Assembly (NCBI RefSeq): GCF_002860325.1 | Contig: NZ_PKOJ01000005.1 | Location: forward strand, 186,001 to 250,000 | DNA: 64,000 nt | Source of the DNA: Neptunicoccus cionae | GTDB lineage: Bacteria > Pseudomonadota > Alphaproteobacteria > Rhodobacterales > Rhodobacteraceae | Direction of reading: 5' to 3' | Shown: positions 6,466-43,281 of the stretch, one piece after another | How the letters are laid out: the number at the start of each line of letters is the position of its first letter | How positions within the stretch are numbered: position 1 is the first letter of the stretch | Position numbers and translations under genes: made by a program | The notes under the pieces: generated by a model | Seen by the model: only the letters and a program-made list of their open reading frames with translations | Databases searched by the model: none | Told to the model about the DNA's origin: nothing

Positions 6466-6475
6466 TTGCGAAAAA
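6466..6475 (+). promoter_or_regulatory. flagellar-cluster motif TTGCGAAAAA, copy 1 (sigma gene)
   Basis: Exact TTGCGAAAAA followed by ACATAAAATA, in the motB/sigma intergenic region and pointing to the sigma gene. TAAC lies 19 bp upstream of the motif, as it does at the copy at 9721. Confidence 0.6.
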
Positions 6476-6532
6476 ACATAAAATAGCCCAACTTCGAAAA
6501 TACACCTCCAATCATGGGGGAAATACAACGAT

Positions 6533-6552
6533 CGGGCGGAAACATCCGCCCG
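6533..6552 (+). other. perfect leader stem-loop upstream of the sigma gene
   Basis: CGGGCGGA-AACA-TCCGCCCG forms an 8-bp perfect stem with a 4-nt loop. It lies between the TTGCGAAAAA motif and the sigma-factor start, so it would be within the mRNA leader. It has no T-tract, so it is not a typical terminator. An attenuation or RNA-stability role is possible. Confidence 0.45.
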
Positions 6553-6639
6553 GCATGAGGTCAAAGGGTACGGTGCTACGGGAGATTTCCGCGCAGGCGG
6601 GTTTTCTGACAGCACCCGATAAAGAATTTGGGCAAGCAT

Positions 6640-7356
6640 ATGCGGGATAGCGCCGCGATTGTTTCAGGCAATGATCGTGGCGAAACTAACGGATGTCTCA
6701 GGGCGCATGCGGTCACTTATGACCCGCAAACCCTGACGCAAATAGTAACTGAAAACCTGTCCAAGGTTCAGTCAATGGCGCGAAGTATGGCGCGCACACG
6801 GGAACTGCAAGACGATCTTGTTTCAGCGGGTGTCGAGGCGATGCTGAAATCCCTGTCAAACTATGTGCCAATACCCGGCGTTCCGTTCTTTGCTTATGCG
6901 AAAATGTTTGTGCGATCATCCATGCAACGGGAGGCCGCCTTTCTGGCCCAACTGGTTGATATTCCCGAACTGCACCTGCGCAATGCAAGAAATGGCCGGA
7001 TGGCCGCGCCCGAAGCCGCCTTGGTGCGAGAGGCGCAATATGTTTCCGATATTGATGACATGTTTGAAACGACAAGTGACCAGCCAAGCCACACGGCGGA
7101 ATCCTCGTTAGTTAACAAAGATGTAGCCGAGCATTCGGCACGTATGATCAAACTTGCGGTCAAGGCTCTGAATGCGGAAGAAACGGAAATCATTCGTGCC
7201 CGTTTCCTAGAAGAAGAACCGGTAGATGAAGTGGCCGCCAGACTTGACATTTCGCCCGAAAAAATGCGAAAAATTGAACAACGCGCAAGATCCCGCATGA
7301 AGACTTTCTTGCTTAAACGTGGCGTTACAGCGGGTTTCATGAATTCGGAGAACTGA
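6640..7356 (+). CDS. alternative sigma-70-family sigma factor of the flagellar cluster
   Basis: A divergent sigma factor of about 238 aa containing only regions 2 and 4. Region 2 includes DDLVSAGVEAMLKSL and PFFAYAKMFVRSSMQRE, at about residues 58-98 from this start. Region 4 includes NAEETEIIRARFLEEEPVDE and the helix-turn-helix ISPEKMRKIEQRARSRMK near the C-terminus. Region 2 resembles both FliA and RpoH types, so I do not assign a symbol. I chose ATG 6640; a TTG at 6628 is an alternative and neither has a strong SD. fliK follows after 2 bp, suggesting co-transcription. A cluster-encoded sigma factor and a recurring promoter-like motif make it a candidate flagellar sigma factor. Confidence 0.8.
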   Translation: MRDSAAIVSGNDRGETNGCLRAHAVTYDPQTLTQIVTENLSKVQSMARSMARTRELQDDLVSAGVEAMLKSLSNYVPIPGVPFFAYAKMFVRSSMQREAAFLAQLVDIPELHLRNARNGRMAAPEAALVREAQYVSDIDDMFETTSDQPSHTAESSLVNKDVAEHSARMIKLAVKALNAEETEIIRARFLEEEPVDEVAARLDISPEKMRKIEQRARSRMKTFLLKRGVTAGFMNSEN

Positions 7357-7358
7357 CA

Positions 7359-9035
7359 GTGATAGCCTTCCCTCTCCTTGCGCAAATCCTGCCAGCCACT
7401 GTTGGTTCGGCCGCGCAAGCAGACGGGAACGGCAATTTTGAACAGCTTCTCGATACGGGTAAATTACCGGAACTGAAGACTCTTGTTCCCACCGCTCCCC
7501 TACCGGACGGAGAGGTCGAAGCAGAGGCAGACACCGTCACCGGAGAAGATGTCGCGATCCCCGTTGAAGCAGAGGAAACCGATACACCCGACCCGCTTGA
7601 AACGGTTGATCGAACCGTCCCGCAAACCGCTTCGAAATCCGCGACTCCATTGCAGGGTACGCCGGAAATAGAGTTGCCGCAGCCGAAAGAGATTGCGCAA
7701 GCTGCACCTCTGGAAGGGTCGGGCCCATTGCCGGTTGAGGTGGCGCCAGCCTCTCCGTCCGAGCGTCCGGAGCCTGTTCGCAAAGGCGTTTTGGAAGTTG
7801 CCAGTGACAAAATAGTCACGGCAGGACCGCAGCTTAAGGTGCCCGAACCTGCTGTCACACCGCAAGCTCAGCTTGAAGTGGCGGAAAACCCGACAAAAGC
7901 CTTGCCTGTAGACACCGCTGCTTCTGCGCCACAGGAAAGTGTGATTTCAGCACCTACCGACTTGGAAATTAACGGGCTCCTGGATCCTGCGGCACCCGAC
8001 AACCAAACCGCCCCCGAACCCGACAAACAGACCACCCCCGAAAAAGAAATCGCCAGTTCCTTACCGGCATTAGCTCCGTCCTCTGACGTCGAGTTACCCG
8101 AAACTGCGGTGGTGGAGCCGGTCGTCAACACAGACGCGGACGTGGAAGTGGCGATTTTGACATCTGGGCAAGCCGCACCGCTACCGGCAACGCCACAACA
8201 AAACCAACCCGTCCCATCGGAACAAACCGCTGACCTCCCGCCGGTCATGCCTGCTTTGGACGTGCCCCAAGATCGCAAGGCGGTTGATCGGGACATCCAG
8301 ACTTCTACAAATCCCGAGCCGCGCTCAGCCTCCGTTAAAAATCCCGAGGTGATATCGGTCACAAGAACCGGAGAGACGGTTCAGGTGGAGCTTGCCAAGA
8401 CCAAAAATCCTGTGGCGGGTGAGACGTTCTCACAACAGCTTTCCAAGCCGCAGCCGGAAGTTTCTGCACCGGAAAGCGGATTGGCCAAGGTCCAATCGAC
8501 AGGGGAGCCGACTACAATTGTTGCGCCCCAGCCCCTCCGTCCCGTCCTTGCCCCTGTGCAACCGGCTCCGGAACTGCAAACCGCGCCCGCTCCACAACCG
8601 ACAAAATCCCCGATTGTACGGCAGGTTATGGAGCAACTGGTTCAATATCCAACCGAGGGCGGGGTTGCGACCATCCGCCTGAAGCCCCACGGCATGGGCG
8701 TCATCGAAATTTCGGTCGATCGTGCAAAAGACGGTGGGTTGAACGTTGATATGCGGGTGCAAAACCCGCTGGTGCTGGACGCAATGCGGGCAGAGCGTGG
8801 CGCGATTTCCCATTTGTTCCAACCCACAGGAACCACAGCGGGCGGTACACTTTCGATGGATCTCTTCCAATCCGGCGCGGGCACGGGCCGCGAGGAACAG
8901 CACCGCCAGAACCCGCCTTCGGAATCCAAAACGTCCAGTGATACACAGGCCGACCCCGAACATGCGGAGGATCCCGCCTTGCCCCTTCGCAGCAGACAGA
9001 CACGCGCCTCCGGTGCTGTAAACATTTTAACCTGA
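7359..9035 (+). CDS. fliK: flagellar hook-length control protein FliK
   Basis: A 558-aa secreted ruler that sets hook length and switches export specificity via FlhB. The first 400 or so residues are low-complexity, rich in Pro, Glu, Ala, Thr and Val, as usual for FliK. The conserved Flg_hook C-terminal domain is near residues 410-505, with GGVATIRLKPHGMGVIEISV and DMRVQNPLVLDAMRAER. The GTG start at 7359 lies 2 bp after the sigma-gene stop, which implies translational coupling. flgD follows 12 bp downstream, the common fliK-flgD arrangement. Confidence 0.92.
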   Translation: MIAFPLLAQILPATVGSAAQADGNGNFEQLLDTGKLPELKTLVPTAPLPDGEVEAEADTVTGEDVAIPVEAEETDTPDPLETVDRTVPQTASKSATPLQGTPEIELPQPKEIAQAAPLEGSGPLPVEVAPASPSERPEPVRKGVLEVASDKIVTAGPQLKVPEPAVTPQAQLEVAENPTKALPVDTAASAPQESVISAPTDLEINGLLDPAAPDNQTAPEPDKQTTPEKEIASSLPALAPSSDVELPETAVVEPVVNTDADVEVAILTSGQAAPLPATPQQNQPVPSEQTADLPPVMPALDVPQDRKAVDRDIQTSTNPEPRSASVKNPEVISVTRTGETVQVELAKTKNPVAGETFSQQLSKPQPEVSAPESGLAKVQSTGEPTTIVAPQPLRPVLAPVQPAPELQTAPAPQPTKSPIVRQVMEQLVQYPTEGGVATIRLKPHGMGVIEISVDRAKDGGLNVDMRVQNPLVLDAMRAERGAISHLFQPTGTTAGGTLSMDLFQSGAGTGREEQHRQNPPSESKTSSDTQADPEHAEDPALPLRSRQTRASGAVNILT

Positions 9036-9047
9036 CAGGTCACAGAT

Positions 9048-9704
9048 ATGAGCATTACATCTATTTCCAGCGCATCGGTCACAGGGACAGCGGAAAGCTC
9101 CTTGTCCCAACTTTCCGACGATTACGAGACCTTCCTGAACCTGCTTGTGGCGCAAATTCAGAATCAGGATCCGTTGGAACCGTTGGATGCGACTGAATTT
9201 ATCTCGCAAATCGCAACCCTGACCCAAGTCGAGCAAACGGTGAATACCAATTCCCAGCTGGAGCAGTTGCGCTCCACTCTCGCACTGACGGCTTCCATGT
9301 CCGAAGCCACACTGATCGGGCGCACAGTTACCGTTCCGGCCAGCGCGGTAGAGCTGGATGCAACCGGAACCCCCGTTACCTTCAGCTATGAGATTGAGGG
9401 CGAAGCCTCCTCGGCCACGGCAATCATCAGTGATGCGGACGGGAATGTCTTGCGCTTGATCGAAGACCTGCCGGGAACTGCGGGTGTGTTGAATGAGGTG
9501 TCCTGGGACGGGCTGGACGACAGCGGCACCCTTTTGCCAGCGGGGATTTACACCATCTCGATGGCCGCACAGGATGCGACGGGCGGGTATAACACTTACA
9601 TCCGCGATCGGGTGGCATCGGTTTCCTATGTCGGCGGCGAACAGTTGCTTAACCTTGAAAACGGTTTGGAAGCTAGTAGCGGAGAGATCGTCAAGATCGA
9701 GTAA
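9048..9704 (+). CDS. flgD: flagellar hook assembly scaffold FlgD
   Basis: A 218-aa hook-cap protein needed for FlgE polymerisation. The N-terminal export and scaffold region contains FLNLLVAQIQNQDPLEPLDA and the following EFISQIATLTQVEQ, the diagnostic FlgD signature at about residues 27-65. A C-terminal FlgD Ig-like/tudor domain follows (VSWDGLDDSGTLLPAGIYTI). It lies directly downstream of fliK and is likely co-transcribed with it. Confidence 0.95.
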   Translation: MSITSISSASVTGTAESSLSQLSDDYETFLNLLVAQIQNQDPLEPLDATEFISQIATLTQVEQTVNTNSQLEQLRSTLALTASMSEATLIGRTVTVPASAVELDATGTPVTFSYEIEGEASSATAIISDADGNVLRLIEDLPGTAGVLNEVSWDGLDDSGTLLPAGIYTISMAAQDATGGYNTYIRDRVASVSYVGGEQLLNLENGLEASSGEIVKIE

Positions 9705-9720
9705 CAACGTGCTCAAGAGT

Positions 9721-9730
9721 TTGCGAAAAA
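9721..9730 (+). promoter_or_regulatory. flagellar-cluster motif TTGCGAAAAA, copy 2 (M15 hydrolase gene)
   Basis: TTTGCGAAAAATGTTATT ends 19 bp before the ATG at 9750, with AAGGGGGG as SD between. A -35 role is impossible at this distance, so it would have to be a -10-like or start-proximal operator element. Confidence 0.6.
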
Positions 9731-9749
9731 TGTTATTAAGGGGGGACAT

Positions 9750-10343
9750 ATGATTTCGAGACGCAGGATCATTTGTAGCGGTCTTGCCAGCGCCCTTTTG
9801 CCTGTCCTTCCGGCTTTCGCGGATGACGGGCTGAATATACCCGAACCGGTACGCAAGAATAGCAAACTTGACCAACTGGTTCCGCTGATCGAACCCTATC
9901 TTGATCTTTACAATCCCCATACGAAAGAACGCGAAAAGGTCCGTTTCTTCGGCGCTTCCGGATACGATCTGGCCGCCGTCAACAAAATTAACCACCTGCT
10001 GCGGGACTGGCGGCAGGATCAGGTCGTGCAGATGGATGTACGCCTATATTGGGGACTAGCCGCCATCCGCACCGCGGCTGTGCGGGATGGCCTGACCGGA
10101 GAAATCCAGATCAATTCCGGCTTTCGCACGAAAAGAACCAACGACTATCTGCGCAGTGAAGGTTATCGCCCCGCGGTAAATTCACTGCACCTGCGCGGCA
10201 GAGCAGTGGATTTCGTGGTAAAAGGCGGTGATGTAGCCAATGTAGCGCGATACGCCCAGTGGTTGGAGATCGGTGGCACCGGACATTACCGCGGGCGCTT
10301 CATCCATGTGGATTCCGGCGACCGCAGGGTCTGGTTCGGTTAG
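9750..10343 (+). CDS. Tat-exported M15/DUF882-type peptidoglycan peptidase
   Basis: A 197-aa periplasmic murein peptidase of the DUF882/YcbK (M15-like) family. The N-terminus is a twin-arginine signal (ISRRRIICSGLASALLPVLP) ending AFA. Zinc-ligand positions typical of the family are visible: SLHLRGRAVD (His147, Asp154) and FIHVDSG (His186, Asp188). The fold start INSGFRTKRTNDYL is also typical. It follows flgD after 45 bp and has its own TTGCGAAAAA motif and a strong SD (AAGGGGGG). Because the flgJ-like gene here lacks a muramidase domain, this enzyme is a good candidate for opening peptidoglycan for the rod; that role is inference. Confidence 0.85.
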   Translation: MISRRRIICSGLASALLPVLPAFADDGLNIPEPVRKNSKLDQLVPLIEPYLDLYNPHTKEREKVRFFGASGYDLAAVNKINHLLRDWRQDQVVQMDVRLYWGLAAIRTAAVRDGLTGEIQINSGFRTKRTNDYLRSEGYRPAVNSLHLRGRAVDFVVKGGDVANVARYAQWLEIGGTGHYRGRFIHVDSGDRRVWFG

Positions 10344-10356
10344 ATCCCGTTAAAGT

Positions 10357-10380
10357 TTGCGAAAAATATTCTGATCAGAA
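10357..10380 (+). promoter_or_regulatory. flagellar-cluster motif copy 3 plus 12-bp palindrome, between convergent genes
   Basis: TTGCGAAAAA at 10357-10366 is followed by the perfect palindrome TTCTGATCAGAA at 10369-10380, which overlaps the stop of the leftward gene. As a promoter this copy would read antisense into that gene. TAAAGTTT directly overlaps the motif's start. Confidence 0.4.
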
Positions 10381-11013
10381 ATGCAGATGGGCAAGCGGGG
10401 TCGTCATGATTGCGGTAACACCCTGTATCATGGCCAGATAGGAACTACGCATCTGTTGCTGGCTGGCAAACCCTTCAAATCCCGAAGCCTCGCCCCGCCA
10501 TACCGGTAAAAGACTGCTTGTTTTTGGCGCTTTCAAAGGTTTCTCGGCCCGATATTCAGCCAACGCACCACCATTATTGCGGGTGACACGAATGCCATCG
10601 CACAGGCCGGGCCGGTTGAAATCCAGAATGTAGCCGTCCTCTGATTCCAGCCAGATTCCCTTGTGATACAAGCTTTCCGCGCTTTCCTGCCGGGTCACCC
10701 GACCGGAAACAACACGCCAGTCCGGTTGCTTGCCGCTAGCTTCCTTAACATCCGAAAAAGCATCCAGCGCAAGAACGGTCATATCCAGAACGGGCATTGG
10801 CGCCCCCTGACCTTGCGCTCCGCGATTGAGAAAATTCGAAAGCGGTTGGCAAAAGTTCACTACAGCCTGTGCCGCCCGTTCAATCTGGGTGTGCCGGGAA
10901 GCAGCCGGCATTTCCTGTGACATTGGTTCTACATGACCAATAGCACTGAAAGACCTGTCCGAAACTGCATGTTTGTAAGGGGCGGATCGCACGGGGTAGG
11001 ACAATTCGGGCAT
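10375..11013 (-). CDS. conserved-context hypothetical protein in the flagellar cluster
   Basis: A 212-aa protein that I do not recognise. The ATG at 11013 was chosen because GAGAAGAAT lies just upstream; an 11-residue longer start exists at 11046. No signal peptide or membrane segment is evident. The middle part reads TVLALDAFSDVKEAS and GIWLESEDGYILDFNRPGLC, and the C-terminus is EGFASQQQMRSSYLAMIQGV. It is transcribed leftward, convergent to the M15 hydrolase gene and downstream of the flgF-G-A-H run. Its place among basal-body genes suggests a flagellar role, but nothing in the sequence proves one. Confidence 0.6.
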   Translation of the reverse strand: MPELSYPVRSAPYKHAVSDRSFSAIGHVEPMSQEMPAASRHTQIERAAQAVVNFCQPLSNFLNRGAQGQGAPMPVLDMTVLALDAFSDVKEASGKQPDWRVVSGRVTRQESAESLYHKGIWLESEDGYILDFNRPGLCDGIRVTRNNGGALAEYRAEKPLKAPKTSSLLPVWRGEASGFEGFASQQQMRSSYLAMIQGVTAIMTTPLAHLHF

Positions 11014-11228
11014 ATTCTTCTCGGGTATTCGGCGGATTAAAGGCAAATGTAAAACGGCGAGTCAGCACAATTAATTTGTGCCATGCAAAAAATTAATTTT
11101 CAAACAATTTTGACACGCAAAGGTAGAGTTTTTACATAAATTTTACAACGTAACGTTTGTCAAACAATTTCACCCTTTAAAGGGGCATGCAACCTCGCGC
11201 CAGCCCGGATTCATTACGTCGGAAAGAA
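11014..11228. other. intergenic region with an inverted repeat
   Basis: A 215-bp AT-rich gap. It holds the inverted repeat GCACAA-TTAAT-TTGTGC at 11065-11081 and several TTAA and CAAACAATTT elements. It lies upstream of the leftward hypothetical gene, so it may hold its promoter. No exact TTGCGAAAAA copy was seen here. Confidence 0.5.
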
Positions 11229-11681: not shown

Positions 11682-11695
11682 TATTTTGTGCTGCC

Positions 11696-12463: not shown

Positions 12464-12539
12464 TGCTGTCTCTTTGTTGCTCCGCGAATATCTTCGGGAT
12501 GTTCCTGTCTTGGTTCCTGTCATCCGGTCCGCCCGCACC

Positions 12540-14037: not shown

Positions 14038-14047
14038 TTTTTCGCAA
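14038..14047 (-). promoter_or_regulatory. flagellar-cluster motif TTGCGAAAAA, copy 4 (flgG)
   Basis: On the leftward strand TTTGCGAAAAATAATACG ends about 23 bp before the flgG ATG, followed by TTAAGCGGAGACC with the SD. It sits between flgF and flgG. Confidence 0.6.
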
Positions 14048-14803: not shown

Positions 14804-14880
14804 AAGATGCAGGTCTCCGTATCGGGTGATTATTTCCGGTTGATCTGTGCCAACATCATAAACTATACATTATGTTGTGT

Positions 14881-14910
14881 TTTCGCATAACCCTAGAAAT
14901 GCGAAAAATT
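14881..14910. promoter_or_regulatory. divergent pair of cluster-motif variants between flgF and the TPR-like gene
   Basis: TTATGCGAAA at 14881-14890 (leftward) faces flgF, and ATGCGAAAAATT at 14899-14910 (rightward) faces the 585-aa protein gene. Both keep the GCGAAA core of the motif. Confidence 0.5.
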
Positions 14911-14943
14911 AAAAAAGATACCGGAAAAAGGGCTGGTAAATCC

Positions 14944-16701
14944 GTGCATCAGTTTGCCCACTACCGAATGATATTTGCCGCCCGACGGTTTTTCGGGCTG
15001 GTTGCGGTTGTGGCGGGGCTGATCGGGACGGCATCCAACCCTACGTATGCAGCGGATAAAACACCACAACATATAGGGATGGAAGTGCCGCCCCTTCCGG
15101 AGTCTCAACTCGACACACGGTTTGAAAACACACAGTTTAATGCGGCGCAGCAGGCTTTTTCGGCGAATTTTGCGACTGCTGAACCGGCCCAACGTTCGAC
15201 AGCAGCACTGGATTATGCCCAGTTCCTTATCAGCTGGATGATGCTTCCCGAAGCACAAGATTTAGTAGAGTTCAGTCTTAACGGTGCGAAGCAGGACGAA
15301 AGCGAACGCGCGCGGGCTTATATGTCCATGATTGACATCCTTTCCGGCGATCAAACGGCAGATAAAGAGATTCCGGCGGCCATGGGATTGGATCCTGTCT
15401 GGCCGGTTGTAGCCGGATTGTCGGCAGGCGATTCTATTGAAACCGATTTGCTGCGGTCTGCGTCCACACGACTTGAGCGGCACAGTCCGGCAGTCGCCGG
15501 TCGCCTTGTGCCGGTGCTCTTTGATGCAGCAGTTGCGAATAAAGATCTGGATTTTGCAAGAAGCCTTCTAAATGCTTCGGAAATGGGTACAGACCTTGCC
15601 GGAACGTCACAGATGCTGCTGATGCGCGGGCTTCTGGCGCGCGCAGAGCGGCAAAACCAGAATGCCTTTGATTTTTTTGCATGGGCATCAGAGCATCAGG
15701 ACCGCGCAGCAGCACAGGCGCGGATCGAGCTGGCCGATATGGCGCTTGAAAACCCCGATCGCGCGGTGCGGGAACGCGTGCGGGATTTGCTGGTAGAAGG
15801 CCTGGCCCGCTGGCGCGGCGACGCGCTGGCGCTAAGAATGCGCGCCTTGCTGGCGCGGGTTTCCGAAGATCTCGGGGATGCGGAAACCGCAATCCTTTCC
15901 ATGGCATCGCTGCACGCCGACCACCCCGAAACCCCCGAAGCAGAATTGGCAGAACGACGGATCGCTGTAATATTGGGTCAAATGGCAGAGGCGATCGAGG
16001 CAGACGCTATGAGCCTGCCGGACTCTCTGGCCATGGTGCGACGTCTTGAGCCATACATGAGCGCCCATACACAGCGGGTAGAGGTTCGCGGTGCTCTGGC
16101 CGGACGTTTCGCGCGGGCAGGGCTGACAGTCGCTGCCGAAGCTGAATACGCAGATATTTGGGACGGGTTGCTGGAACAAGAGCAAGCCGAAATCTCCCCT
16201 GCCCTGCTGGACCGGTTGTTGCTGGAACAGGCAAGGCGGTACCAGCGGGAAGACATTCCTGCTGCCGCAAGAAATTCGATCGCCCGCCGTCCGGCGGAAC
16301 GCGTGAAAGACCTTGATCCAGAATTTGCGAAAATTGAACTTCTGGCCGGCGGAACACCGGAAAACGAAGGCGACGTAAAGGTATCGCTTGAAGTGGGACG
16401 CTACGCTTTAAGCAAAAACAATGAGGACGCAGCACTTTCCGCACTCTCGCGGGCAGGCGTGCTGCCGTCCGCAGAAGGTATTCACGCCGCCCGCATCGCG
16501 GCTGCTCGTGGGCAGTCCGATGTATCTGGCTACTTGCAAAATCTTACCGGCGACTCGCGCGAAAAAGTGGCGCGGCTCACCACAATCCGGGCCGCAGAAG
16601 CGCCCCAAATTTCCCCGCTTTCGGTAGAAGCTGCACGCGGGATTGTTGAGCGGGCCACATCGGCTCTTGAGGCGGTTGCGGCGTTAAACACGTCCGACTG
16701 A
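14944..16701 (+). CDS. large exported helical-repeat (TPR-like) protein upstream of flgE
   Basis: A protein of about 585 aa that I do not recognise by name. A signal peptide is visible near the N-terminus (MIFAARRFFGLVAVVAGLIG, then a cleavage site near TYAAD), so it is likely periplasmic. The rest is Ala- and Leu-rich, predicted helical and repeat-like, for example LLMRGLLARAERQNQNAFDF and AQARIELADMALENPDRAV. I chose GTG 14944 with AAAAAGGG upstream; ATGs at 14872, 14899 and 14968 are alternatives, and the motif variant at 14899 argues against the two earliest. flgE follows after 62 bp. Rhizobial MotC is a periplasmic MotB partner in a comparable setting, but homology is not established. 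Confidence 0.65.
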   Translation: MHQFAHYRMIFAARRFFGLVAVVAGLIGTASNPTYAADKTPQHIGMEVPPLPESQLDTRFENTQFNAAQQAFSANFATAEPAQRSTAALDYAQFLISWMMLPEAQDLVEFSLNGAKQDESERARAYMSMIDILSGDQTADKEIPAAMGLDPVWPVVAGLSAGDSIETDLLRSASTRLERHSPAVAGRLVPVLFDAAVANKDLDFARSLLNASEMGTDLAGTSQMLLMRGLLARAERQNQNAFDFFAWASEHQDRAAAQARIELADMALENPDRAVRERVRDLLVEGLARWRGDALALRMRALLARVSEDLGDAETAILSMASLHADHPETPEAELAERRIAVILGQMAEAIEADAMSLPDSLAMVRRLEPYMSAHTQRVEVRGALAGRFARAGLTVAAEAEYADIWDGLLEQEQAEISPALLDRLLLEQARRYQREDIPAAARNSIARRPAERVKDLDPEFAKIELLAGGTPENEGDVKVSLEVGRYALSKNNEDAALSALSRAGVLPSAEGIHAARIAAARGQSDVSGYLQNLTGDSREKVARLTTIRAAEAPQISPLSVEAARGIVERATSALEAVAALNTSD

Positions 16702-20405: not shown

Positions 20406-21374
20406 TTACTTGAACAGCTCGTTACGCAATGCGTCTACAGTTCCTTCCGGATTATCCGGATTGATAAAGCTGCCGGTTGTCCAGAACCCGAAGAACACCA
20501 CTGTTGCGAAAAAGTAAGCTGCGAACAGTCCGGCTAGGATCTTGTGGGATTTCGAAACCACCGGCCCGCCGGTAAAAGTGAAATACACCAGCCCGCCGGA
20601 TTCAGAGACAACCGGATGTACAGTTGCACCCGTCGGGACAAGGCTTGCCGGCATAAAGGCAGAAGGGAGCCGGATCTCTGCTACCGGCCGGTTGTTCGCA
20701 ATGCACGCCGAGGCAGAAATGGCAAAACCTGTCCGGTCTTCCCGCAGCAGAATATCCCCTTCGGTCAGCGAGACTGTCGGACCGCTGGCCGCTAGGGTTA
20801 AAACCGCTTCACCGTTTGCGGACTGGCTGTAGCGGAGTCCCTCCAGATATGACGGCACCGGTGCGACACTCTCCAAAGGCACAAACCCCTGCGGCACGGC
20901 AGGTGTGTTTTGTGCATTCTGGGTGGATTTGGTCGGGGCCGGATGCTCCGCCTCGGGGGCATCTTTCACAGGGGCAACGTCAGCAGGTGTTGCCGCCTGC
21001 GGCATTGCAATCCCCATGTCCCGCGCAAATTCGAAATTCACCACGAAGTTTTCGATTTCTTCGCGCAGTTCTGAATCCGGCAGGTTCAGGGCTGTTTCTA
21101 TTCCGGATAGAAGCACAATATCTTCGGAAAACCCCATGTCGATTTCGGGGTAGCCTTCCAACCGTGGATAGACCGCAAGAGTTTGTGGCACCCGAACCTG
21201 TTCCAGAGCTTGCAATCGGGCGACGACACCGGCCGGATTTTCTCCGTCGTGATAAGGCTGCATCTGTACGATACGCCCGTCCCTGACCACCACAGCCAGA
21301 GCGACTTCTTCGGGCCATTCAAAGTTTTGGACAATCTCGGAATTCTCGAACAATCGAATGAAGGGGGTCTTCAC
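20406..21374 (-). CDS. hypothetical protein with a C-terminal membrane anchor
   Basis: A protein of about 322 aa with no family I recognise. The GTG start at 21374 is preceded by AAGGTGAG at proper spacing. An acidic cytoplasmic-type N-terminal half (FIRLFENSEIVQNFEWPEEV) leads to a Pro/Ala-rich linker (about 155-190) and a beta-rich stretch (LTLAASGPTVSLTEGDILL). One membrane segment near residues 278-300 follows (ILAGLFAAYFFATVVFFGFW), then a short tail. It is convergent with flgL and divergent from motA. A degenerate motif (TGCGAATTTT, near 21434-21450) lies upstream. Probably a flagellar accessory membrane protein by context only. Confidence 0.6.
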   Translation of the reverse strand: MKTPFIRLFENSEIVQNFEWPEEVALAVVVRDGRIVQMQPYHDGENPAGVVARLQALEQVRVPQTLAVYPRLEGYPEIDMGFSEDIVLLSGIETALNLPDSELREEIENFVVNFEFARDMGIAMPQAATPADVAPVKDAPEAEHPAPTKSTQNAQNTPAVPQGFVPLESVAPVPSYLEGLRYSQSANGEAVLTLAASGPTVSLTEGDILLREDRTGFAISASACIANNRPVAEIRLPSAFMPASLVPTGATVHPVVSESGGLVYFTFTGGPVVSKSHKILAGLFAAYFFATVVFFGFWTTGSFINPDNPEGTVDALRNELFK

Positions 21375-21460
21375 GTTAACGCTCACCTTACAGGTCCAAT
21401 TCTGGTTCGAGAATGTCTGAAAAATTATAATAAAATTCGCATTCTCGCAAGCTGCATCTT

Positions 21461-21470
21461 TTGCGAAAAA
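21461..21470 (+). promoter_or_regulatory. flagellar-cluster motif TTGCGAAAAA, copy 5 (motA)
   Basis: TTTTGCGAAAAAAAG on the rightward strand, 48 bp upstream of the motA start, in the divergent region with the 20406 gene. A leftward degenerate copy (TTGCGAGAATGCGAATTTT) is just to its left. Confidence 0.6.
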
Positions 21471-21518
21471 AAGAAATAACCTATGCTTGTGCCAAGACAT
21501 ACTTCGGAGACGTAAACC

Positions 21519-22819: not shown

Positions 22820-24226
22820 TCAGACAACGTTATCGTATTGGGTCGGAAGCTCTGGCATATCGACCTTAACCCCCGCCTCTTCCAGCAGGCCGTAAAGGGT
22901 TGCAAAAGCTTCTTCGCTGCTTTGGGGCGCACGCACGCCCTGCCCCAGAAAACCGTCTGCAAGTTTGGCAAAACGGATCGCGGCGTCCGTATCCGGATCT
23001 GTTCCGGTGCGATAGGCGCCGATGCGGGCCAGATCCTCTATATCCGCGTGTCGGGCAAGGGCACGGCGCGCGGCGGACATAATGGCAAGTTCGATGGCAA
23101 TGTGGCAATCCGGCAGGGACCGAGACACGGATTTTGCAATGTTTATAGCAGGATAGCGCCCGGACTCTGCAATCTTCCGGTCCAGAACGATATGCCCGTC
23201 CAGAATACCCCTGACCGTATCAGCGACCGGTTCGTTCATATCGTCGCCGTCCACCAATACCGTGTAAAGGGCCGTAATATCTCCGCCTTCCTTGCGCGCC
23301 GATCCCGGACCGGACCGTTCTAACAAACGGGGCAATTCGGTAAACACTGTAGGCGTATAGCCACGGGTGGCAGGGGGTTCACCGGCGGCGAGTCCGATTT
23401 CCCGCTGCGCGGTTGCAAACCGCGTCACACTATCCAGCATCAACAGAACCTGTTTGCCCTGATCGCGATAGAATTCTGCAATCGACGTGGCCGCAAAGGC
23501 AGCCTGCCGCCGCATCAGCGGAGGCTGGTCCGACGTTGCCACAACCACCGCAGAACGGGCCATGCCTTCCGGCCCGAGATCCCGCGTCAGAAAATCCTGA
23601 ACTTCCCGTCCCCGTTCCCCGACCAGCCCGATCACGATGACATCCGCATTCGCCTGACGGGCCAACATGGCCATCAGCGTCGATTTACCGACACCGGAAC
23701 CGGCAAAAATCCCCAGCCGTTGCCCCCTGCAAATCGGTGTGAACACGTCGATTGCGCGGATACCGGTTTCCAGCTTTCCGCCCATTACCCGCCGGTCAAA
23801 CGCATCGGGCGGAGTGTTGCGCAACGGGTAGCCGCAAGGCCCGTCCGGCAGTTCAAGCCCGTCCAGCGGTTCGCCAAAAGCGTCAACGACGCGGCCGATC
23901 CAGTCCTGCCCCGGAAAGATGTCTCCGGCACCCGTCATCAGCTCTACGCGGTCGCCCCGCCCGATCCCGTCCCATGTGCCAAACGGAAGCAGGCGAATCC
24001 CTTCGGAATCGGTTGCGACCACCTCGGAGGGGATTCGCCCCGCGACCAGCGCCCGGTCCCCAATTTTGGCACTTTCCCCGAGTCCGGAGGCCGTCAGACC
24101 CAAACCGCCAACGCTAATAACCTTTCCCGACACCAGCGATGACGGAATTTTACGCATCTCGCTCCGCAATTGCGAAAAAGTTGTTGGGCGCTCCATAAGC
24201 AGGCTTTCAATCATAGGTATATCCAT
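22820..24226 (-). CDS. fliI: flagellum-specific export ATPase FliI
   Basis: A 468-aa ATPase that energises type III export. Walker A is GIFAGSGVGKST near residues 172-183. The Walker B region VLLMLDSVTRFATAQREIGL follows, then GEPPATRGYTPTVFTELPRL, all diagnostic of the FliI/F1-beta family. I chose ATG 24226 (MDIPMIESLLMERP); an upstream extension to 24289 would read through the motif region. The TTGCGAAAAA motif on this strand lies 22 bp upstream. A rightward copy of the motif (24170) lies inside its 5' coding end. Confidence 0.95.
   Translation of the reverse strand: MDIPMIESLLMERPTTFSQLRSEMRKIPSSLVSGKVISVGGLGLTASGLGESAKIGDRALVAGRIPSEVVATDSEGIRLLPFGTWDGIGRGDRVELMTGAGDIFPGQDWIGRVVDAFGEPLDGLELPDGPCGYPLRNTPPDAFDRRVMGGKLETGIRAIDVFTPICRGQRLGIFAGSGVGKSTLMAMLARQANADVIVIGLVGERGREVQDFLTRDLGPEGMARSAVVVATSDQPPLMRRQAAFAATSIAEFYRDQGKQVLLMLDSVTRFATAQREIGLAAGEPPATRGYTPTVFTELPRLLERSGPGSARKEGGDITALYTVLVDGDDMNEPVADTVRGILDGHIVLDRKIAESGRYPAINIAKSVSRSLPDCHIAIELAIMSAARRALARHADIEDLARIGAYRTGTDPDTDAAIRFAKLADGFLGQGVRAPQSSEEAFATLYGLLEEAGVKVDMPELPTQYDNVV
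24170..24179 (+). promoter_or_regulatory. flagellar-cluster motif TTGCGAAAAA, copy 6 (flgB operon)
   Basis: Rightward copy inside the first codons of fliI, antisense to it and 88 bp upstream of flgB. It is the only exact copy seen within a gene, and it faces the long flgB-to-flhB operon. Confidence 0.5.
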
Positions 24227-24248: not shown

Positions 24249-24258
24249 TTTTTCGCAA
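24249..24258 (-). promoter_or_regulatory. flagellar-cluster motif TTGCGAAAAA, copy 7 (fliI)
   Basis: On the leftward strand CCTTGCGAAAAAATCAATCG ends 22 bp before the fliI ATG. It lies between the divergent fliI and flgB starts, 9 bp before flgB. Confidence 0.6.
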
Positions 24259-32530: not shown

Positions 32531-32540
32531 TTTTTCGCAA
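32531..32540 (-). promoter_or_regulatory. flagellar-cluster motif TTGCGAAAAA, copy 8 (fliL operon)
   Basis: On the leftward strand ACATTTGCGAAAAATCTAAA ends 24 bp before the fliL ATG, in the divergent fliL/fliF region. Confidence 0.6.
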
Positions 32541-37244: not shown

Positions 37245-37265
37245 CGCCGGACCCTGGCTCCGGCG
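37245..37265. terminator. rho-independent terminator between fliG and the DUF1217 gene
   Basis: Stem CGCCGGA/TCCGGCG with a 7-nt loop. On the leftward strand it is followed by TTTCTTTTT, so it is strongest for the flaF-flbT-DUF1217 transcript; it may also stop fliG transcripts. Confidence 0.7.
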
Positions 37266-37292
37266 CTTCGTCATTCATTACAGTTCAGCGCG

Positions 37293-38913: not shown

Positions 38914-38955
38914 GAGGTATCACCTTCTGGTGGGGTTATGAGAAAGGCTTGATGT

Positions 38956-38981
38956 CTCCGACCCTGTTCTCAGGGTCGGAG
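38956..38981. terminator. perfect 11-bp hairpin after flagellin 1
   Basis: CTCCGACCCTG-TTCT-CAGGGTCGGAG, perfect 11-bp stem, between flagellin 1 and flaF. No T-tract follows on the leftward strand, so it may be an attenuator or mRNA 3'-end stabiliser that leaves some read-through into flaF-flbT. Confidence 0.6.
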
Positions 38982-39009
38982 CGCCAGATTTAGTAATCTC
39001 GGGTAAAGA

Positions 39010-39945
39010 TTACTGGAACAGGCTCAGAACGTTGGACGGTGCCTGGTTCGCGATGGAAAGCGACTGAGTTGCCAGCTGCTGCTGTGTTTGCAGTGCTTGC
39101 AGACGGGCCGCTTCTTCTTCCATGTCCGCATCGATCATGGAACCCACACCGCTGTCGATGTTATCGGTCAGCTTGTTCAGGAATTCCTGCTGGTTCTCGA
39201 TAGATTTCTCGGATTGACCCAGCTTTGTCGCAATGTCGGTGACGCTCGTCAGATAGCCTTCAGTGGTGGCCAGAACGCCCGCAAGGAATGCTTCGCCAGT
39301 CGCAGCTGTCTCTGCTGCTGTTGCAAAACCGGACGCAACACCTGCAAAACTGCCAACCAATGACGCCATGTCATATGCGCCAACAGCAATATCAGTTGTT
39401 GCATAAGTACCGCCCGCACGGGTGATACCAGTCACAACACTGCGATCGGTACTGACTGTACCTGCGTTGGCTGCGGCTGTTGTCTCGCTACCGTCTGTTG
39501 CGTCAATAGCCGCAGCAGTAACGCTGGCGTAGGTTCCGGCGCTCAGCAGGTCATCCCCGTTAAAGGTGGACTGGCTCAGCGTGGTTTCCATTTGCTTGAC
39601 CAGTTCCTTCAGATCGTTCTCGATCTCTGTCTGGCCACCGGCTGCGCCTTGCGCAAAAGCAACCTTGTCAAGGAACTGCTGGGCAAGATCCTGAATGGTT
39701 TCAGAACCCAGACGGGCCGTTGCAACGGAGTTTTTCGTCAGGGTCAGACCTTCGTTGATGGACGCATAGGCAGAGCTGTCGCCCTTCATGGTCTCGGAGA
39801 TCTGGAAATAAGCTGCGTTGTCTTTTGCAGATCCGACTTTCAGACCCGAAGAAATCCGGTCCTGAGTTGTGGCCATGTTGTCGTTCACTTCGCGAAGGGC
39901 CGAAAGGGCGTTCATTGCAGAAGTGTTTGTGATGATCGAAGTCAT
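39010..39945 (-). CDS. fliC: flagellin, copy 1
   Basis: A 311-aa filament subunit. The conserved D0/D1 N-terminus is SIITNTSAMNALSALREVND with NMATTQDRISSGLKVGSAKD. The C-terminus ends QQQLATQSLSIANQAPSNVL then SLFQ. The central 130-240 region is variable and differs from copy 2. The start at 39945 has AAGGACTAC upstream. It shares an almost identical leader with copy 2. Only a degenerate cluster motif (GAACGAAAAATAAAC, leftward, near 40074) lies upstream, so it may be expressed differently. Confidence 0.95.
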   Translation of the reverse strand: MTSIITNTSAMNALSALREVNDNMATTQDRISSGLKVGSAKDNAAYFQISETMKGDSSAYASINEGLTLTKNSVATARLGSETIQDLAQQFLDKVAFAQGAAGGQTEIENDLKELVKQMETTLSQSTFNGDDLLSAGTYASVTAAAIDATDGSETTAAANAGTVSTDRSVVTGITRAGGTYATTDIAVGAYDMASLVGSFAGVASGFATAAETAATGEAFLAGVLATTEGYLTSVTDIATKLGQSEKSIENQQEFLNKLTDNIDSGVGSMIDADMEEEAARLQALQTQQQLATQSLSIANQAPSNVLSLFQ

Positions 39946-39975
39946 ATTAAGTAGTCCTTGCTTTCTTGCTCTGGA

Positions 39976-39995
39976 CACCGGTCATTCTACCGGTG
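39976..39995 (-). other. flagellin 1 mRNA leader stem-loop
   Basis: CACCGGT-AGAATG-ACCGGTG on the leftward strand, a 7-bp perfect stem with 6-nt loop, about 31 nt upstream of the ATG. The same element is in front of copy 2. It is a plausible FlbT or RNase target. Confidence 0.6.
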
Positions 39996-40033
39996 GTAGG
40001 GATTTTTCCCATGTGAAGAAGAAGCGCTGGTCA

Positions 40034-40052
40034 GGTTTCCATCCGGTTTCCA
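40034..40052 (-). repeat. paired TGGAAACC repeats upstream of flagellin 1
   Basis: TGGAAACC occurs twice with an 11-bp period (40045-40052 and 40034-40041, read leftward), i.e. about one helical turn. The same pair precedes flagellin 2. Confidence 0.55.
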
Positions 40053-40113
40053 AATGAACTCTACTTGAAGTTTATTTTTCGTTCGGCTGGATTTCGGTGC
40101 GCTTCCCTTCAAC

Positions 40114-40136
40114 CCCGCCCCCGATTACGGGGCGGG
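40114..40136. terminator. hairpin after flagellin 2
   Basis: CCCGCCCC/GGGGCGGG, 8-bp GC-rich stem with a 7-nt loop, 25 bp downstream of the flagellin 2 stop. No T-tract. It probably separates the two flagellin transcripts. Confidence 0.55.
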
Positions 40137-40160
40137 ATATTTCGGCTAAACGTCCGTTCC

Positions 40161-41099
40161 TTACTGGAACAGGCTCAGAACGTTGGACGGTGCCTGGTTG
40201 GCGATGGAAAGCGACTGAGTTGCCAGCTGCTGCTGTGTTTGCAGTGCTTGCAGACGGGCCGCTTCTTCTTCCATGTCCGCATCGATCATGGAACCAACGC
40301 CGCTGTCGATGTTATCGGTCAGCTTGTTCAGGAATTCCTGCTGGTTCTCGATGGATTTTTCGGACTGACCCAGTTTGGTTGCGATGTCGGAGACTTTTCC
40401 GACAACACCTTCAGTAGATGCCAGAACACCGGCAAGGAAAGCTTCGCCGGTTGCTGCTGTCGCATTGGTTTCAAAGTCGGTGCTTATAGCTTTGAAATCG
40501 CGCACGAGCTCGGCCATGTCATATGTGCCAACCACGATGTCGGTTGTGGCATAGCCAGTACCCGCACGGCTGATGCCCGTTACGACATTGCGGTCTACGC
40601 CGACTGTCGCATCACTGTTTACACTTGATGTCAGAGCACCAGTGCCCCCGTTAACCGCAGCTTCAGTCGTAAAGGTGCCACTATAAGATCCCGCACCCAG
40701 CATATCATCCCCGTTAAAGGTGGACTGGCTCAGCGTGGTTTCCATCTGCTTGACCAGTTCCTGAAGATCGTTCTGGATCTCGCCTTGGCCACCGGCTGCG
40801 CCTTGCGCAAAAGCAACCTTGTCAAGGAACTGCTGGGCAAGATCCTGAATGGTTTCCGAACCCAGACGGGCTGTTGCAACGGAGTTTTTCGTCAGGGTCA
40901 GACCTTCGTTGATAGACGCATAGGCAGAGCTGTCGCCCTTCATGGTCTCGGAGATCTGGAAATAGGCTGCGTTGTCTTTTGCAGAGCCGACTTTCAGACC
41001 CGAAGAAATCCGGTCCTGAGTTGTGGCCATGTTGTCGTTCACTTCGCGAAGTGCCGAAAGGGCGTTCATTGCAGAAGTGTTTGTGATGATCGAAGTCAT
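40161..41099 (-). CDS. fliC: flagellin, copy 2
   Basis: A 312-aa flagellin. The first ~105 residues and last ~75 are almost the same as in copy 1 (for example SIITNTSAMNALSALREVND and TQQQLATQSLSIANQAPSNV). The centre differs (AGSYSGTFTTEAAVNGGTGA, ATVGVDRNVVTGISRAGTGY). Tandem duplication with gene conversion of the ends is likely. The start at 41099 shares its SD with copy 1. An exact TTGCGAAAAA motif lies 107 bp upstream. Confidence 0.95.
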   Translation of the reverse strand: MTSIITNTSAMNALSALREVNDNMATTQDRISSGLKVGSAKDNAAYFQISETMKGDSSAYASINEGLTLTKNSVATARLGSETIQDLAQQFLDKVAFAQGAAGGQGEIQNDLQELVKQMETTLSQSTFNGDDMLGAGSYSGTFTTEAAVNGGTGALTSSVNSDATVGVDRNVVTGISRAGTGYATTDIVVGTYDMAELVRDFKAISTDFETNATAATGEAFLAGVLASTEGVVGKVSDIATKLGQSEKSIENQQEFLNKLTDNIDSGVGSMIDADMEEEAARLQALQTQQQLATQSLSIANQAPSNVLSLFQ

Positions 41100-41129
41100 A
41101 TTAAGTAGTCCTTGCTTTCTTGCTCTGGA

Positions 41130-41149
41130 CACCGGTCATTCTACCGGTG
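41130..41149 (-). other. flagellin 2 mRNA leader stem-loop
   Basis: CACCGGT-AGAATG-ACCGGTG, identical to the element at 39976-39995, at the same distance from the ATG. Confidence 0.6.
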
Positions 41150-41187
41150 GTAGGGATTTTTCCCATGTGAAGAGGAAGCGGACCTCA

Positions 41188-41206
41188 GGTTTCCATAAGG
41201 TTTCCA
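41188..41206 (-). repeat. paired TGGAAACC repeats upstream of flagellin 2
   Basis: Two TGGAAACC copies 11 bp apart (41199-41206 and 41188-41195 read leftward), directly after the TTGCGAAAAA motif. Confidence 0.55.
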
Positions 41207-41216
41207 TTTTTCGCAA
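41207..41216 (-). promoter_or_regulatory. flagellar-cluster motif TTGCGAAAAA, copy 9 (flagellin 2)
   Basis: On the leftward strand ATTTGCGAAAAATGGAAACC: the motif runs directly into the first TGGAAACC repeat, 107 bp upstream of the flagellin 2 ATG. Confidence 0.6.
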
Positions 41217-41228
41217 ATTCGATTTTTT

Positions 41229-41744
41229 TTAAAATTTGCGTTCAAAACCCTTTCCGGGCGCCTTTACGTTAACATCACCACGTAACTGTCCGGTTTTATC
41301 GTAAACACCTTTCAGACTCTGCCGGCTGCGCAGATGCTCAATCTCGCTCAGGATGGTGCGGGAGGCGTCGGCCATGCCCCGCAAAAGGTGCTCGTTCAGT
41401 TCCAGTTGTTCCGCCAGATCGCGTACCAGCTTGCGCAATTGGGCCACGGCGGGAACATCTACAGCCAGAAACGGCTCAACCGCAGGCTGCTTTCGCTCCA
41501 GCGTTTCCAGCAGCTTTGCCTTTTCTTCGAAGAAGGAGGCAACAGTCGCTACGTCTTTGGCTTCAAGCGCATCGTTCTCCCGACGCAAAAGGCCGAGCGT
41601 GTCCGAAAGCAGCCCCTCGAACCGATGAATATTCTCTTCGTCTTCCTGTGTCAGACCCGCATTATCCGGCCCGCTGCGGGCCTTGCGCTCTCCCAGACGG
41701 ATACCCAGACGGGAAAGAGCGGATGTGGGGGGCACACCGATCAT
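41229..41744 (-). CDS. FlgN-like export chaperone
   Basis: A 171-aa helical protein with the pattern of FlgN, the chaperone of FlgK and FlgL. Its helical core includes LSDTLGLLRRENDALEAKDV, FEEKAKLLETLERKQPAVEP and LAEQLELNEHLLRGMADASR. It is the last gene of a leftward flgI-flgJ-like-flgN-like run, overlapping the previous gene by 4 bp. Its sequence match to FlgN is moderate by eye, so no symbol is assigned. Confidence 0.7.
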   Translation of the reverse strand: MIGVPPTSALSRLGIRLGERKARSGPDNAGLTQEDEENIHRFEGLLSDTLGLLRRENDALEAKDVATVASFFEEKAKLLETLERKQPAVEPFLAVDVPAVAQLRKLVRDLAEQLELNEHLLRGMADASRTILSEIEHLRSRQSLKGVYDKTGQLRGDVNVKAPGKGFERKF

Positions 41745-42022
41745 TTACTATAGACTTTCAACTGGGCCGCAATCGAACGCGCGATCCCTACACCACCGGA
41801 GTTTGCCACTTCCTGCGCCATCGCATTGGCCAGCAACCCGCGAAACATCTCTTCCCCGTGCCCGCCTGCCGGATCGGGAATGGCCTGCGCCAGCATCGCT
41901 GAAAAGGTGGTTCCCAGATAAGCCGCTTCAAAATCCTGCGCGGCTTTCTCGATGCTTTCCTGTTTTCCCAAATCTTTTGGTTCTGCCCGCAGGGTCTGAA
42001 AAAGGGGAATTTGCAAATCCAT
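41741..42022 (-). CDS. rod-binding FlgJ N-terminal-domain protein
   Basis: A 93-aa protein equal to the rod-cap N-terminal domain of FlgJ: IEKAAQDFEAAYLGTTFSAM, GEEMFRGLLANAMAQEVANS, GGVGIARSIAAQL. The C-terminal muramidase domain of enterobacterial FlgJ is absent, which is usual in alphaproteobacteria. Peptidoglycan opening must then come from a separate enzyme, perhaps the M15 hydrolase at 9750. Confidence 0.85.
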   Translation of the reverse strand: MDLQIPLFQTLRAEPKDLGKQESIEKAAQDFEAAYLGTTFSAMLAQAIPDPAGGHGEEMFRGLLANAMAQEVANSGGVGIARSIAAQLKVYSK

Positions 42023-43116
42023 TATATGATCTCCAGTTCGGCATGCAGCGCGCCGGAAGCTTTGATCGCCTGCAGGATCGAAATAATTTCCTGCGCCCCG
42101 ATTCCGATCGCATTCAATCCGTCTACCATTTCTCTCAGGCTAACCTGTCCACCGACCAGCGCGAAGCCCGAATTTTTCTGTTCGACCTGAATTTCAGTGC
42201 TGGGAACGATTACGGTTTCCCCGATGGAAATAGGCGCGGGCTGGCTGACAAAGGCGCTTTCCGAAACACTTACCGTTAATCCGCCCTGACTGATCGCCAC
42301 TTCGTCAATGCGCACGTCAGCGCCAATAACAATCGTACCGGATTTGGCATCAATCACAACTTTTGCGGGGGTATCCGGTTGCACCGACAGATTTTCGATT
42401 GCCGCCAGCATCTCGGATATATCGCCCTTGCCCATCATGGACACTTCGATCGTTCCCGGATCAAGCGTGACCGCCCGTGCACCTTTGGCCTGCTCATTGA
42501 TAACGTCTTTTATTCGCAAAGCTGTGGTGAAGTCAGGATTGCGCAGGGCCAGACGTATGCTGGCCATTTCCTGCAAATTAAAATCAATTTCCTTTTCAAC
42601 AATCGCACCGCTTTCGATACGTGCCACGGTTGGCACACCGCTGGTTACTTCCGCCGCGGCCCCCTGAACCGAAAAGCCCCCGACCACAAGCGCACCCTGC
42701 CCGACTGCATAAATTGCACCATCCGCCCCTGACAGAGGCGTGACCAGCAGCGTGCCGCCCCGCAGCGATTCTGCATCACCCAAAGAGGCAACGTTTACGT
42801 CGATTTCACTGCCGCGTCGGGCATAGGCCGGCAATTCTGCCGTGACCATAACAGCGGCAACGTTTTTCGTGTTCAGGCCCTCGTCGCTCAGGTTGCCGAC
42901 GCCCAAGCGGGATAGCATGCCTTCGATTGATTTTCGGGTAAACGGAGAGTTCCGCATACTGTCGCCCGTCCCGTCCAGACCGACGACCAATCCATAGCCG
43001 ATCAACTGGTTCGCCCGAACGCCCTCAAAGCTGACAATATCCTTCAGCCTCACCTGCGCCTGCGCGCTGGCAGCCGCCAGCGTGAACGCTAAAACGAGAA
43101 ATAACCTTGCGAGCAT
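42022..43116 (-). CDS. flgI: flagellar P-ring protein FlgI
   Basis: A 364-aa periplasmic P-ring subunit. The start at 43116 gives signal peptide MLARLFLVLAFTLAAASAQA, followed by VRLKDIVSFEGVRANQLIGY and GLVVGLDGTGDSMRNSPFTR, the diagnostic FlgI region. The C-terminus is GLNAIGIGAQEIISILQAIK. In-frame ATGs at 43131 and 43191 are alternatives; 43116 gives the usual length. It heads the flgI-flgJ-like-flgN-like run, divergent from the regulator at 43300. Confidence 0.95.
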   Translation of the reverse strand: MLARLFLVLAFTLAAASAQAQVRLKDIVSFEGVRANQLIGYGLVVGLDGTGDSMRNSPFTRKSIEGMLSRLGVGNLSDEGLNTKNVAAVMVTAELPAYARRGSEIDVNVASLGDAESLRGGTLLVTPLSGADGAIYAVGQGALVVGGFSVQGAAAEVTSGVPTVARIESGAIVEKEIDFNLQEMASIRLALRNPDFTTALRIKDVINEQAKGARAVTLDPGTIEVSMMGKGDISEMLAAIENLSVQPDTPAKVVIDAKSGTIVIGADVRIDEVAISQGGLTVSVSESAFVSQPAPISIGETVIVPSTEIQVEQKNSGFALVGGQVSLREMVDGLNAIGIGAQEIISILQAIKASGALHAELEII

Positions 43117-43271
43117 TGGGCAGCCATCCATTCCGGTTTCCGCAAATATCAATTCAGGGCTGGCATTCAACCTTCGACCCGAAAAACCCATTAACGGGAT
43201 AGGGACGGAGATTTCTTTCCGATTGGTCCTGTATTGAAGCCGTTTGCCTTGCTACTGTAGTCTATAGTTAT

Positions 43272-43281
43272 TTTTTCGCAA
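43272..43281 (-). promoter_or_regulatory. flagellar-cluster motif TTGCGAAAAA, copy 10 (flgI/regulator)
   Basis: On the leftward strand AACTTGCGAAAAAATAACTA points to flgI (155 bp to ATG 43116). It also ends 18 bp before the start of the divergent regulator gene, so it could affect both. Confidence 0.55.

Follow-up and report, generated by a model that had tools for sequence, protein, structure and literature searches.

What is the function of a ten-base sequence, TTGCGAAAAA, that recurs throughout one flagellar gene cluster of Neptunicoccus cionae (Rhodobacteraceae), and which protein recognizes it? The cluster extends from motB to flgI (5480-43191) within a 64,000-nucleotide stretch of contig NZ_PKOJ01000005.1 (positions 186,001 to 250,000), here designated the window, and all coordinates are those of the window. 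An earlier note listed ten exact copies and proposed that they constitute a shared promoter element or operator. All ten coordinates and strands are exact, and an eleventh copy, at 20504 on the forward strand, had been missed. The eleven copies all lie in the flagellar span from 6466 to 43281 and, as claimed, there is no copy in the window beyond these limits. The concentration of the sequence genome-wide, a footprint at orthologous promoters, its orientation to genes and the lack of an exact copy in a second flagellar cluster support the proposal, and identify TTGCGAAAAA as a genuine, conserved regulatory box that is private to this cluster. With roughly even confidence, we read it as an oriented site bound by a regulator from the cluster itself, with the OmpR/PhoB-type protein encoded at 43300-44016 as the most likely candidate.

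A decamer concentrated in one flagellar cluster

The chance expectation for TTGCGAAAAA in the window is 0.37 copies (100 shuffles; largest count 3), which is higher than the ~0.1 given previously, and only five of the eleven copies (9721, 10357, 14038, 32531 and 41207) extend to TTTGCGAAAAAT, an extension that had been attributed to most of them. The complete genome (4,286,347 bp) has 22 exact copies, divided equally between the 36.8-kb flagellar span (11) and the rest of the genome (11), so that 0.9% of the DNA holds half of the copies; the probability of finding at least 11 of the 22 there is ~1e-17. The reversed word, used as a control, is present in 14 copies genome-wide. The cluster is also the preferred location in three relatives, with 11 of 21 exact copies in the metagenome-assembled genome (MAG) P03SST1bin.12 (G016), and seven of eight in both the MAG Maritimibacter sp. 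NAT7 (G473) and its congener (G476). De novo word counts, which make no use of the box, rank TTGCGAAAAA first and its core, TGCGAAAAA (16 copies in the window), second among the over-represented words of the window, with TGCGAAAAA ranked first in G473 and in G476. With one mismatch allowed, the N. cionae genome has 471 matches to TTGCGAAAAA versus 277 to the reversed word, and weak sites are therefore indistinguishable from background. A coding bias (Leu-Arg-Lys and Phe-Ala-Lys codons) or chance could account for the copy at 20504 and for several near-copies inside genes, but is a highly improbable explanation for eleven copies where 0.37 are expected, for their recurrence in G473 and G476 with the flanks diverged and the box not, and for a concentration in the cluster that the reversed word does not share. 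A chance origin was rejected based on the shuffles, the genome-wide distribution and this recurrence.

Nine of the eleven exact copies, with start codons checked, point at a gene start. This is close to the earlier statement that all but one or two do so, the exceptions being 10357 and 20504. On the forward strand, the box is located 152 bp upstream of a sigma-factor gene (6466-6475), 19 bp upstream of an M15/MepK-like gene and just after flgD (9721-9730), 48 bp upstream of motA (21461-21470) and, within the fliI reading frame, 88 bp upstream of flgB (24170-24179). On the reverse strand, it precedes flgG by 23 bp in the flgF-flgG gap (14038-14047), fliI (24249-24258), fliL by 24 bp (32531-32540), flagellin 2 (41207-41216) and flgI by 80 bp (43272-43281). 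This last copy lies between the divergent flgI and regulator genes, 18 bp from the regulator ATG on the opposite strand. The distance is 52 bp to the orthologous fliI start (24196) or 22 bp to the ATG at 24226, and is 74 or 107 bp for flagellin 2. The spacing of 19-24 bp before the ATG that had been noted for several genes holds for M15, flgG and fliL, and for fliI only with the nearer start. An automatic count using alignment-based starts gives seven copies in sense and four with no gene, with flgB and fliI changing on hand correction. The two remaining copies are between convergent genes with no gene start downstream (10357-10366, forward strand), and inside a gene encoding a 364-aa protein (20504-20513, forward strand), the latter probably incidental. 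Between flgF and a gene encoding a 609-aa protein, there is also an inverted pair of near-boxes, ATGCGAAAAC for flgF (14879-14888, reverse strand), with TATAGT 15 bp downstream, and ATGCGAAAAA on the 609-aa gene/flgE side (14899-14908, forward strand); among five further TGCGAAAAA sequences in the cluster, only the one at 14899 is at a promoter.

Conservation in relatives and a different box in sister clusters

The cluster in G016 is near-identical to that in the window, and all 11 boxes, including those at 10357 and 20504, are intact there (110/110 bases versus 836/880 flank bases), but this pair is too close to prove much. G473 and G476 are closely related, and so count as one independent lineage, and carry an orthologous cluster in which the regulator is 58-60% and the sigma factor 47-51% identical to those of the window. 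The earlier note had suggested looking for the motif in related Rhodobacterales clusters and the box does recur in these two. Five of their seven cluster copies are positioned as in the window, before the sigma-factor gene, flgG (at 17 bp), motA, fliI and flgI, with one copy before fliF and one inside a gene encoding a 214-aa protein. One-mismatch versions are present at flgB (TTGCGAAAAT), fliL (ATGCGAAAAA, at 21 bp) and flagellin (TTGCGAAAAC), and motA has an additional ATGCGAAAAA 45 bp upstream. The M15 start has only ATGCGAAAAA variants, in G473 overlapping the coding start, and no counterpart of the box at 10357 is listed at the orthologous place in either genome.

Alignment on the box of ten promoters from the window and G473 gives an identity of 0.96 within the box, 0.37 in the upstream 30 positions and 0.46 in the downstream 30 positions; leaving out flgB, flgF and the 609-aa gene changes these values to 0.97, 0.29 and 0.42, respectively. 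As these promoters were chosen for having the box in both genomes, with M15, fliF, 10357 and 20504 omitted since it is missing there in one of them, the value for the box is partly built in. The informative part of the footprint is that the flanks around the box have diverged close to chance.

The N. cionae genome has a single FlhA, located in this cluster, whereas a second FlhA, with a second flagellar cluster, is present in both G473 and G476 (G473:C47, L194-L195; G476:C1:1890001-1930000, L196-L197). In the 40 kb around the second FlhA there is no exact TTGCGAAAAA in either genome, TGCGAAAAA is present zero times and once, respectively, and no homologue of the cluster sigma factor or regulator was detected by tblastn (1e-5). 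The box therefore follows this cluster rather than flagellar genes in general, and the specificity proposed earlier is better stated as one for this type of cluster.

The genome-wide scan that had been proposed places half of the 22 copies in the span and half off-cluster, some before non-flagellar genes. Six of the 11 off-cluster copies are inside long open reading frames, one has no clear gene start, and four (L002, L003, L005, L021) precede a likely ATG in sense. The genes concerned encode a fatty-acid desaturase (13 bp), a PAN/A2M-like protein (51 bp), an RTX protein (52 bp) and an HI0933-like oxidoreductase (41 bp, if translation of the long frame begins with the ATG codon of residue 18). 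None of the six neighbouring genes, out of 11, that were scanned against Pfam is flagellar. Copies at non-flagellar genes, which in large number had been named as evidence against a flagellar regulon, are then few but not absent; these four may be extra targets, or possibly occur by chance. They would be expected if a housekeeping or unrelated factor encoded outside the cluster bound the box. We consider such a factor unlikely, given the concentration of the word in the cluster in N. cionae, G473 and G476, with a single exact copy elsewhere in each of the latter two, and the absence of exact copies from their second flagellar cluster.

In a tree of ten proteins, the clusters of the window, G016, G473 and G476 form a sister group to 16 more distant, canonical fla2-type clusters (support 1.000) and do not fall within the fla2 clade; the tree is rooted on Azospirillum lipoferum alone, one long-branched outgroup, so that the position of the root is not beyond doubt. 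These 16 clusters have zero to two copies of TGCGAAAAA each, and the exact decamer once in G124 and once in G010. They carry a different sequence, CAAGNATAR (the canonical-type form set opposite TTGCGAAAAA is CAAGAATAG), 3 to 14 times each versus 0.3 to 3.4 expected, although G006 (7 versus 3.4) and two short fragments, G025 and G026, are only weakly enriched. Of 109 such sites, 99 are outside annotated genes. CAAGNATAR is present seven times in the cluster on plasmid pMaD5 of Marinovum algicola (0.3 expected), nine times in Sulfitobacter mediterraneus (0.8 expected), once in an 8.5-kb Salipiger fragment and not at all in the lateral cluster of A. lipoferum. Clusters in which it is over-represented and mostly intergenic include L184 (M. 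algicola pMaD5), L186 (S. mediterraneus) and L153 (G392). The pMaD5 cluster has a gene content similar to that of the window, including a flgI-linked response regulator and a sigma-70 gene, and, among the matches listed, the FlhA proteins of Rhodobacterales plasmids are ~58-62% identical to that of the window. The difference is in the box, with TGCGAAAAA found 16 times in the 64-kb window versus zero times in 34 kb of pMaD5, and CAAGNATAR twice versus seven times.

At fliF in five genomes (G216, G429, G172, G168, G434), two CAAGNATAR sites are 30-32 bp apart, and several sites form inverted pairs, for example TATACTTG-N5-CAAGAATA; both arrangements would suit a DNA-binding factor. Genome-wide, CAAGAATAR is not rare, and is often no more frequent than its reversed control (37 versus 28 in G434; 16 versus 20 in G392, with 9 of the 16 on the cluster contig), and it is therefore less specific to the cluster than TTGCGAAAAA. 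A flagellar cluster under dedicated control is of a known kind, but a change of box between sister lineages is unusual, and lineages with mutually exclusive boxes provide a natural experiment on the joint change of a regulator and its sites.

Candidate binders of the box

The OmpR/PhoB-type regulator gene (43300-44016, forward strand) encodes a protein with a recognizable winged-helix domain (PF00486, 3.4e-16) that matches PmrA/BasR chains at ~1e-21. A model of modest quality (mean pLDDT 70, pTM 0.52) has the strand-helix order of a receiver in the N-terminal half, but this receiver is atypical. The position of the switch Lys is occupied by S in the window, A in G473 and T, A or L in four others, and in the alignment the end of strand 3 has no acidic position that is conserved and would serve as the phospho-acceptor Asp, though the window protein itself has D57 there. 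With both features missing, ordinary phosphorylation is improbable as the means of control. The gene is beside flgI in the window, G016, G473, G476, M. algicola and 15 of the 16 more distant clusters, the exception being G387, which shows no flgI. The recognition helix and wing are KALDVH and TYTGxGYA in the window clade, and DKV(I/L)DVY and T(V/I/L)xGRGYK in the others, with the DKVIDVY helix of the canonical clusters also present in the Azospirillum regulator; the split in helix and wing falls at the same clade as the split in the box. One helix position, which contacts bases in PhoB, is His in the window clade and Tyr in the others. From a regulator scan of genome contigs (the best 80 of 103 loci), L051 and L052 were used; the remaining 78, from other phyla, have identities in the 30s% or short matches.

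A regulator bound upstream of many operons would switch the cluster as one unit, presumably acting at transcription initiation with net activation, and would exert feedback on the sigma-factor operon and on its own intergenic region. At motA, flgF and flgI, the box would overlap with the -35 region. The short distance from box to ATG at M15, flgG and fliL leaves no room for such an overlap, and there the protein might act differently, by repression or auxiliary binding.

The main alternative, which we regard as distinctly less probable, is that the box is a -10-type promoter element recognized by the cluster's own sigma-70 family factor (6628-7356, forward strand; TTG start, with an ATG at 6640). 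This protein is a divergent family member (TIGR02937, 9.3e-19; Pfam regions 2 and 4) that scores far below the RpoH and FliA cut-offs. Its region 2.3/2.4 (FFAYAKMFVRSSM), which we take to resemble that of FliA, is without the WW pair of most canonical fla2 sigma factors (e.g. FSTYAAWWV). Transcripts would then start a few bases after the box and have short leaders at M15, flgG and fliL, which would account for the strict orientation, for the 17-24 bp distances to the ATG and for the Shine-Dalgarno-like stretch directly after the box at flgG and M15. Moreover, the scan of the cluster genes found no other sigma gene, the operon of this one carries the box, and region 2.3/2.4 departs from that of the canonical fla2 sigma factors in the clade in which the box differs. 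CAAGNATAR also occurs in M. algicola, which has an annotated sigma gene, and is missing from the A. lipoferum cluster, for which none is annotated.

The search for a partner element at a fixed distance found no 5-mer (exact) or 6-mer (one mismatch), within a 3-base window, in at least 5 of 11 or 12 promoters, as expected for a single-box factor and not for a two-part promoter with a conserved -35. Scans for -35-like sequences gave Fisher p values of 0.34 and 0.20, and no upstream column exceeds 0.25 bits among 54 canonical CAAGNATAR sites (those of the 99 with an annotated start downstream). We prefer the regulator as binder because neither TTGCGAAAAA nor the canonical box has a second element at a fixed distance, because the canonical sigma factors vary in region 2.4 while their box stays constant, and because -10-like hexamers follow the box at a distance of 15-16 bp at flgF (TATAGT), motA and flgI. 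The TATAGT at flgF is 15 bp downstream in the window, G473 and G476, which suits a position of the box on the -35 side.

Several observations weigh against the regulator. In the window, G473 and G476 alike, flgG and fliL have retained a box only 17-24 bp from the ATG, a placement that does not fit an ordinary activator site. Statistical support for the -10-like hexamers downstream is weak (Fisher p 0.28 for the window and 0.023 for G473), and in the same scan their spacing spreads to 20 bp at fliI and 18 bp at flgB. The A. lipoferum lateral cluster, for which no sigma gene is annotated, has a regulator with a canonical-type helix and neither box (CAAGNATAR 0 versus 0.3 expected), and this loosens the connection between the two. 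Some canonical clusters encode a MucR-type protein or a second response regulator, either of which, as well as the flgI-linked regulator, could bind CAAGNATAR, and the clade with the changed box has a changed sigma factor as well. Four off-cluster copies are 13-52 bp before non-flagellar genes. In an automatic count many TGCGAAAAA sequences of the cluster do not precede a start, with sense/antisense/neither at 8/1/7 for the window, 9/1/6 for G473 and 9/1/5 for G476. Caveats that concern a shared promoter element or operator of any kind are that two of the eleven cluster copies are away from gene starts, and that flagellin 1 and, in the window, fliF are without an exact box.

An element in 5′ leaders, read as UUGCGAAAAA, that controls translation would also be compatible with the sense orientation and with the location of the box immediately ahead of the ribosome-binding region at flgG, fliL and M15. 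We consider this improbable, as the inverted repeat formed by the flgF/609-aa pair would, once transcribed, fold onto itself, and as a promoter would be needed upstream of each box, whereas at flgF the TATAGT is downstream.

A broader form of the sigma-factor alternative, that the box is the promoter element of a cluster-borne, flagellum-specific sigma-70 factor, that the sister lineages switched box (TTGCGAAAAA versus CAAGNATAR) and that each transferable flagellum has a private transcription code, seems to us slightly more doubtful still. According to a 2025 abstract, Alphaproteobacteria have no known flagellum-specific sigma factor (PMC12826043). The sigma gene in this and in fla2-type clusters (e.g. 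MALG_04549) is a candidate for such a factor.

Known systems and the genes of the cluster

The consensus sequences of CtrA, sigma-28 (FliA) and sigma-54 are TTAA-N7-TTAA, TAAA-N15-GCCGATAA and TGGCAY-N5-TTGC, respectively. TTAA-N7-TTAA occurs once in the window, at 5245, away from the box promoters, and there are no matches to TAAA-N14-16-GCCGATAA. As in FliA systems, the sigma gene is inside the flagellar cluster, but its product scores 32.9 bits versus a FliA cut-off of 189.6. The scan likewise gave no support to a sigma-54 promoter with its TTGC in the box, with 17 one-mismatch matches versus 12.3 expected and none at a box. CtrA-controlled promoters of Phaeobacter fla1 and Cereibacter fla2 genes are an instance of a flagellar cluster under response-regulator control within the same bacterial order (PMC12363192; PMC6180460).

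A closer parallel to the preferred regulator may be FtcR, an OmpR-type flagellar regulator reported to recognize a single 8-bp non-palindromic motif, to bind its own promoter and to autoregulate (PMC9456535). FtcR of Brucella and the FtcR-like ActR of Azorhizobium are described as OmpR/PhoB-type proteins that, like the window regulator, are often encoded beside flagellar genes (PMC9456535, PMC8639532). The reported FtcR motif, TGTGGGCA, differs, as do the 363 genome-wide ChIP sites (118 with the motif) from a box, TTGCGAAAAA, concentrated in one cluster. If the 43300-44016 protein is the binder, it would work like FtcR.

In the literature search, which covered TTGCGAAAAA and not CAAGNATAR, and outside of which lay most subscription papers, no title or abstract start names the motif, and none of the exact-word matches listed is on flagellated bacteria by title. 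For Rhodobacterales with two flagellar systems, coordination is described as having only first indications, from C. sphaeroides (PMC12363192). A cluster-private box, in a cluster that also codes for a sigma factor and the probable regulator, offers a testable answer to this question of coordination.

Family searches identified motB, the sigma-70 factor, a FliK-like protein, flgD, the M15/MepK-like gene, flgH, flgA, flgG, flgF, flgE, flgK and flgL, together with motA, fliJ, fliI, flgB, flgC, fliE, flhA, flhB, fliM, fliL, fliG, flbT and flaF, as well as two flagellins, a weak FlgN, flgI and the OmpR/PhoB-type regulator. Cluster proteins of 609 aa (14872-16701), 364 aa (20406-21500) and 223 aa (10375-11046) have no Pfam or NCBIfam match, but have homologues in G473 and G476.

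Three other over-represented words of the window were set aside. CCCGTTAA has eight sites, six in genes and three of those in flagellin genes, AGGAATTCCT is in two places (both strands counted), both in flagellin genes, and five of the eight sites of ATGGAAACC are in or before flagellin genes. Both flagellin leaders (~40030-40060 and 41188-41216) also have a repeated GGAAACC, ~11 bp apart, that is present at flagellin in G473 and G476 as well and is possibly a leader element.

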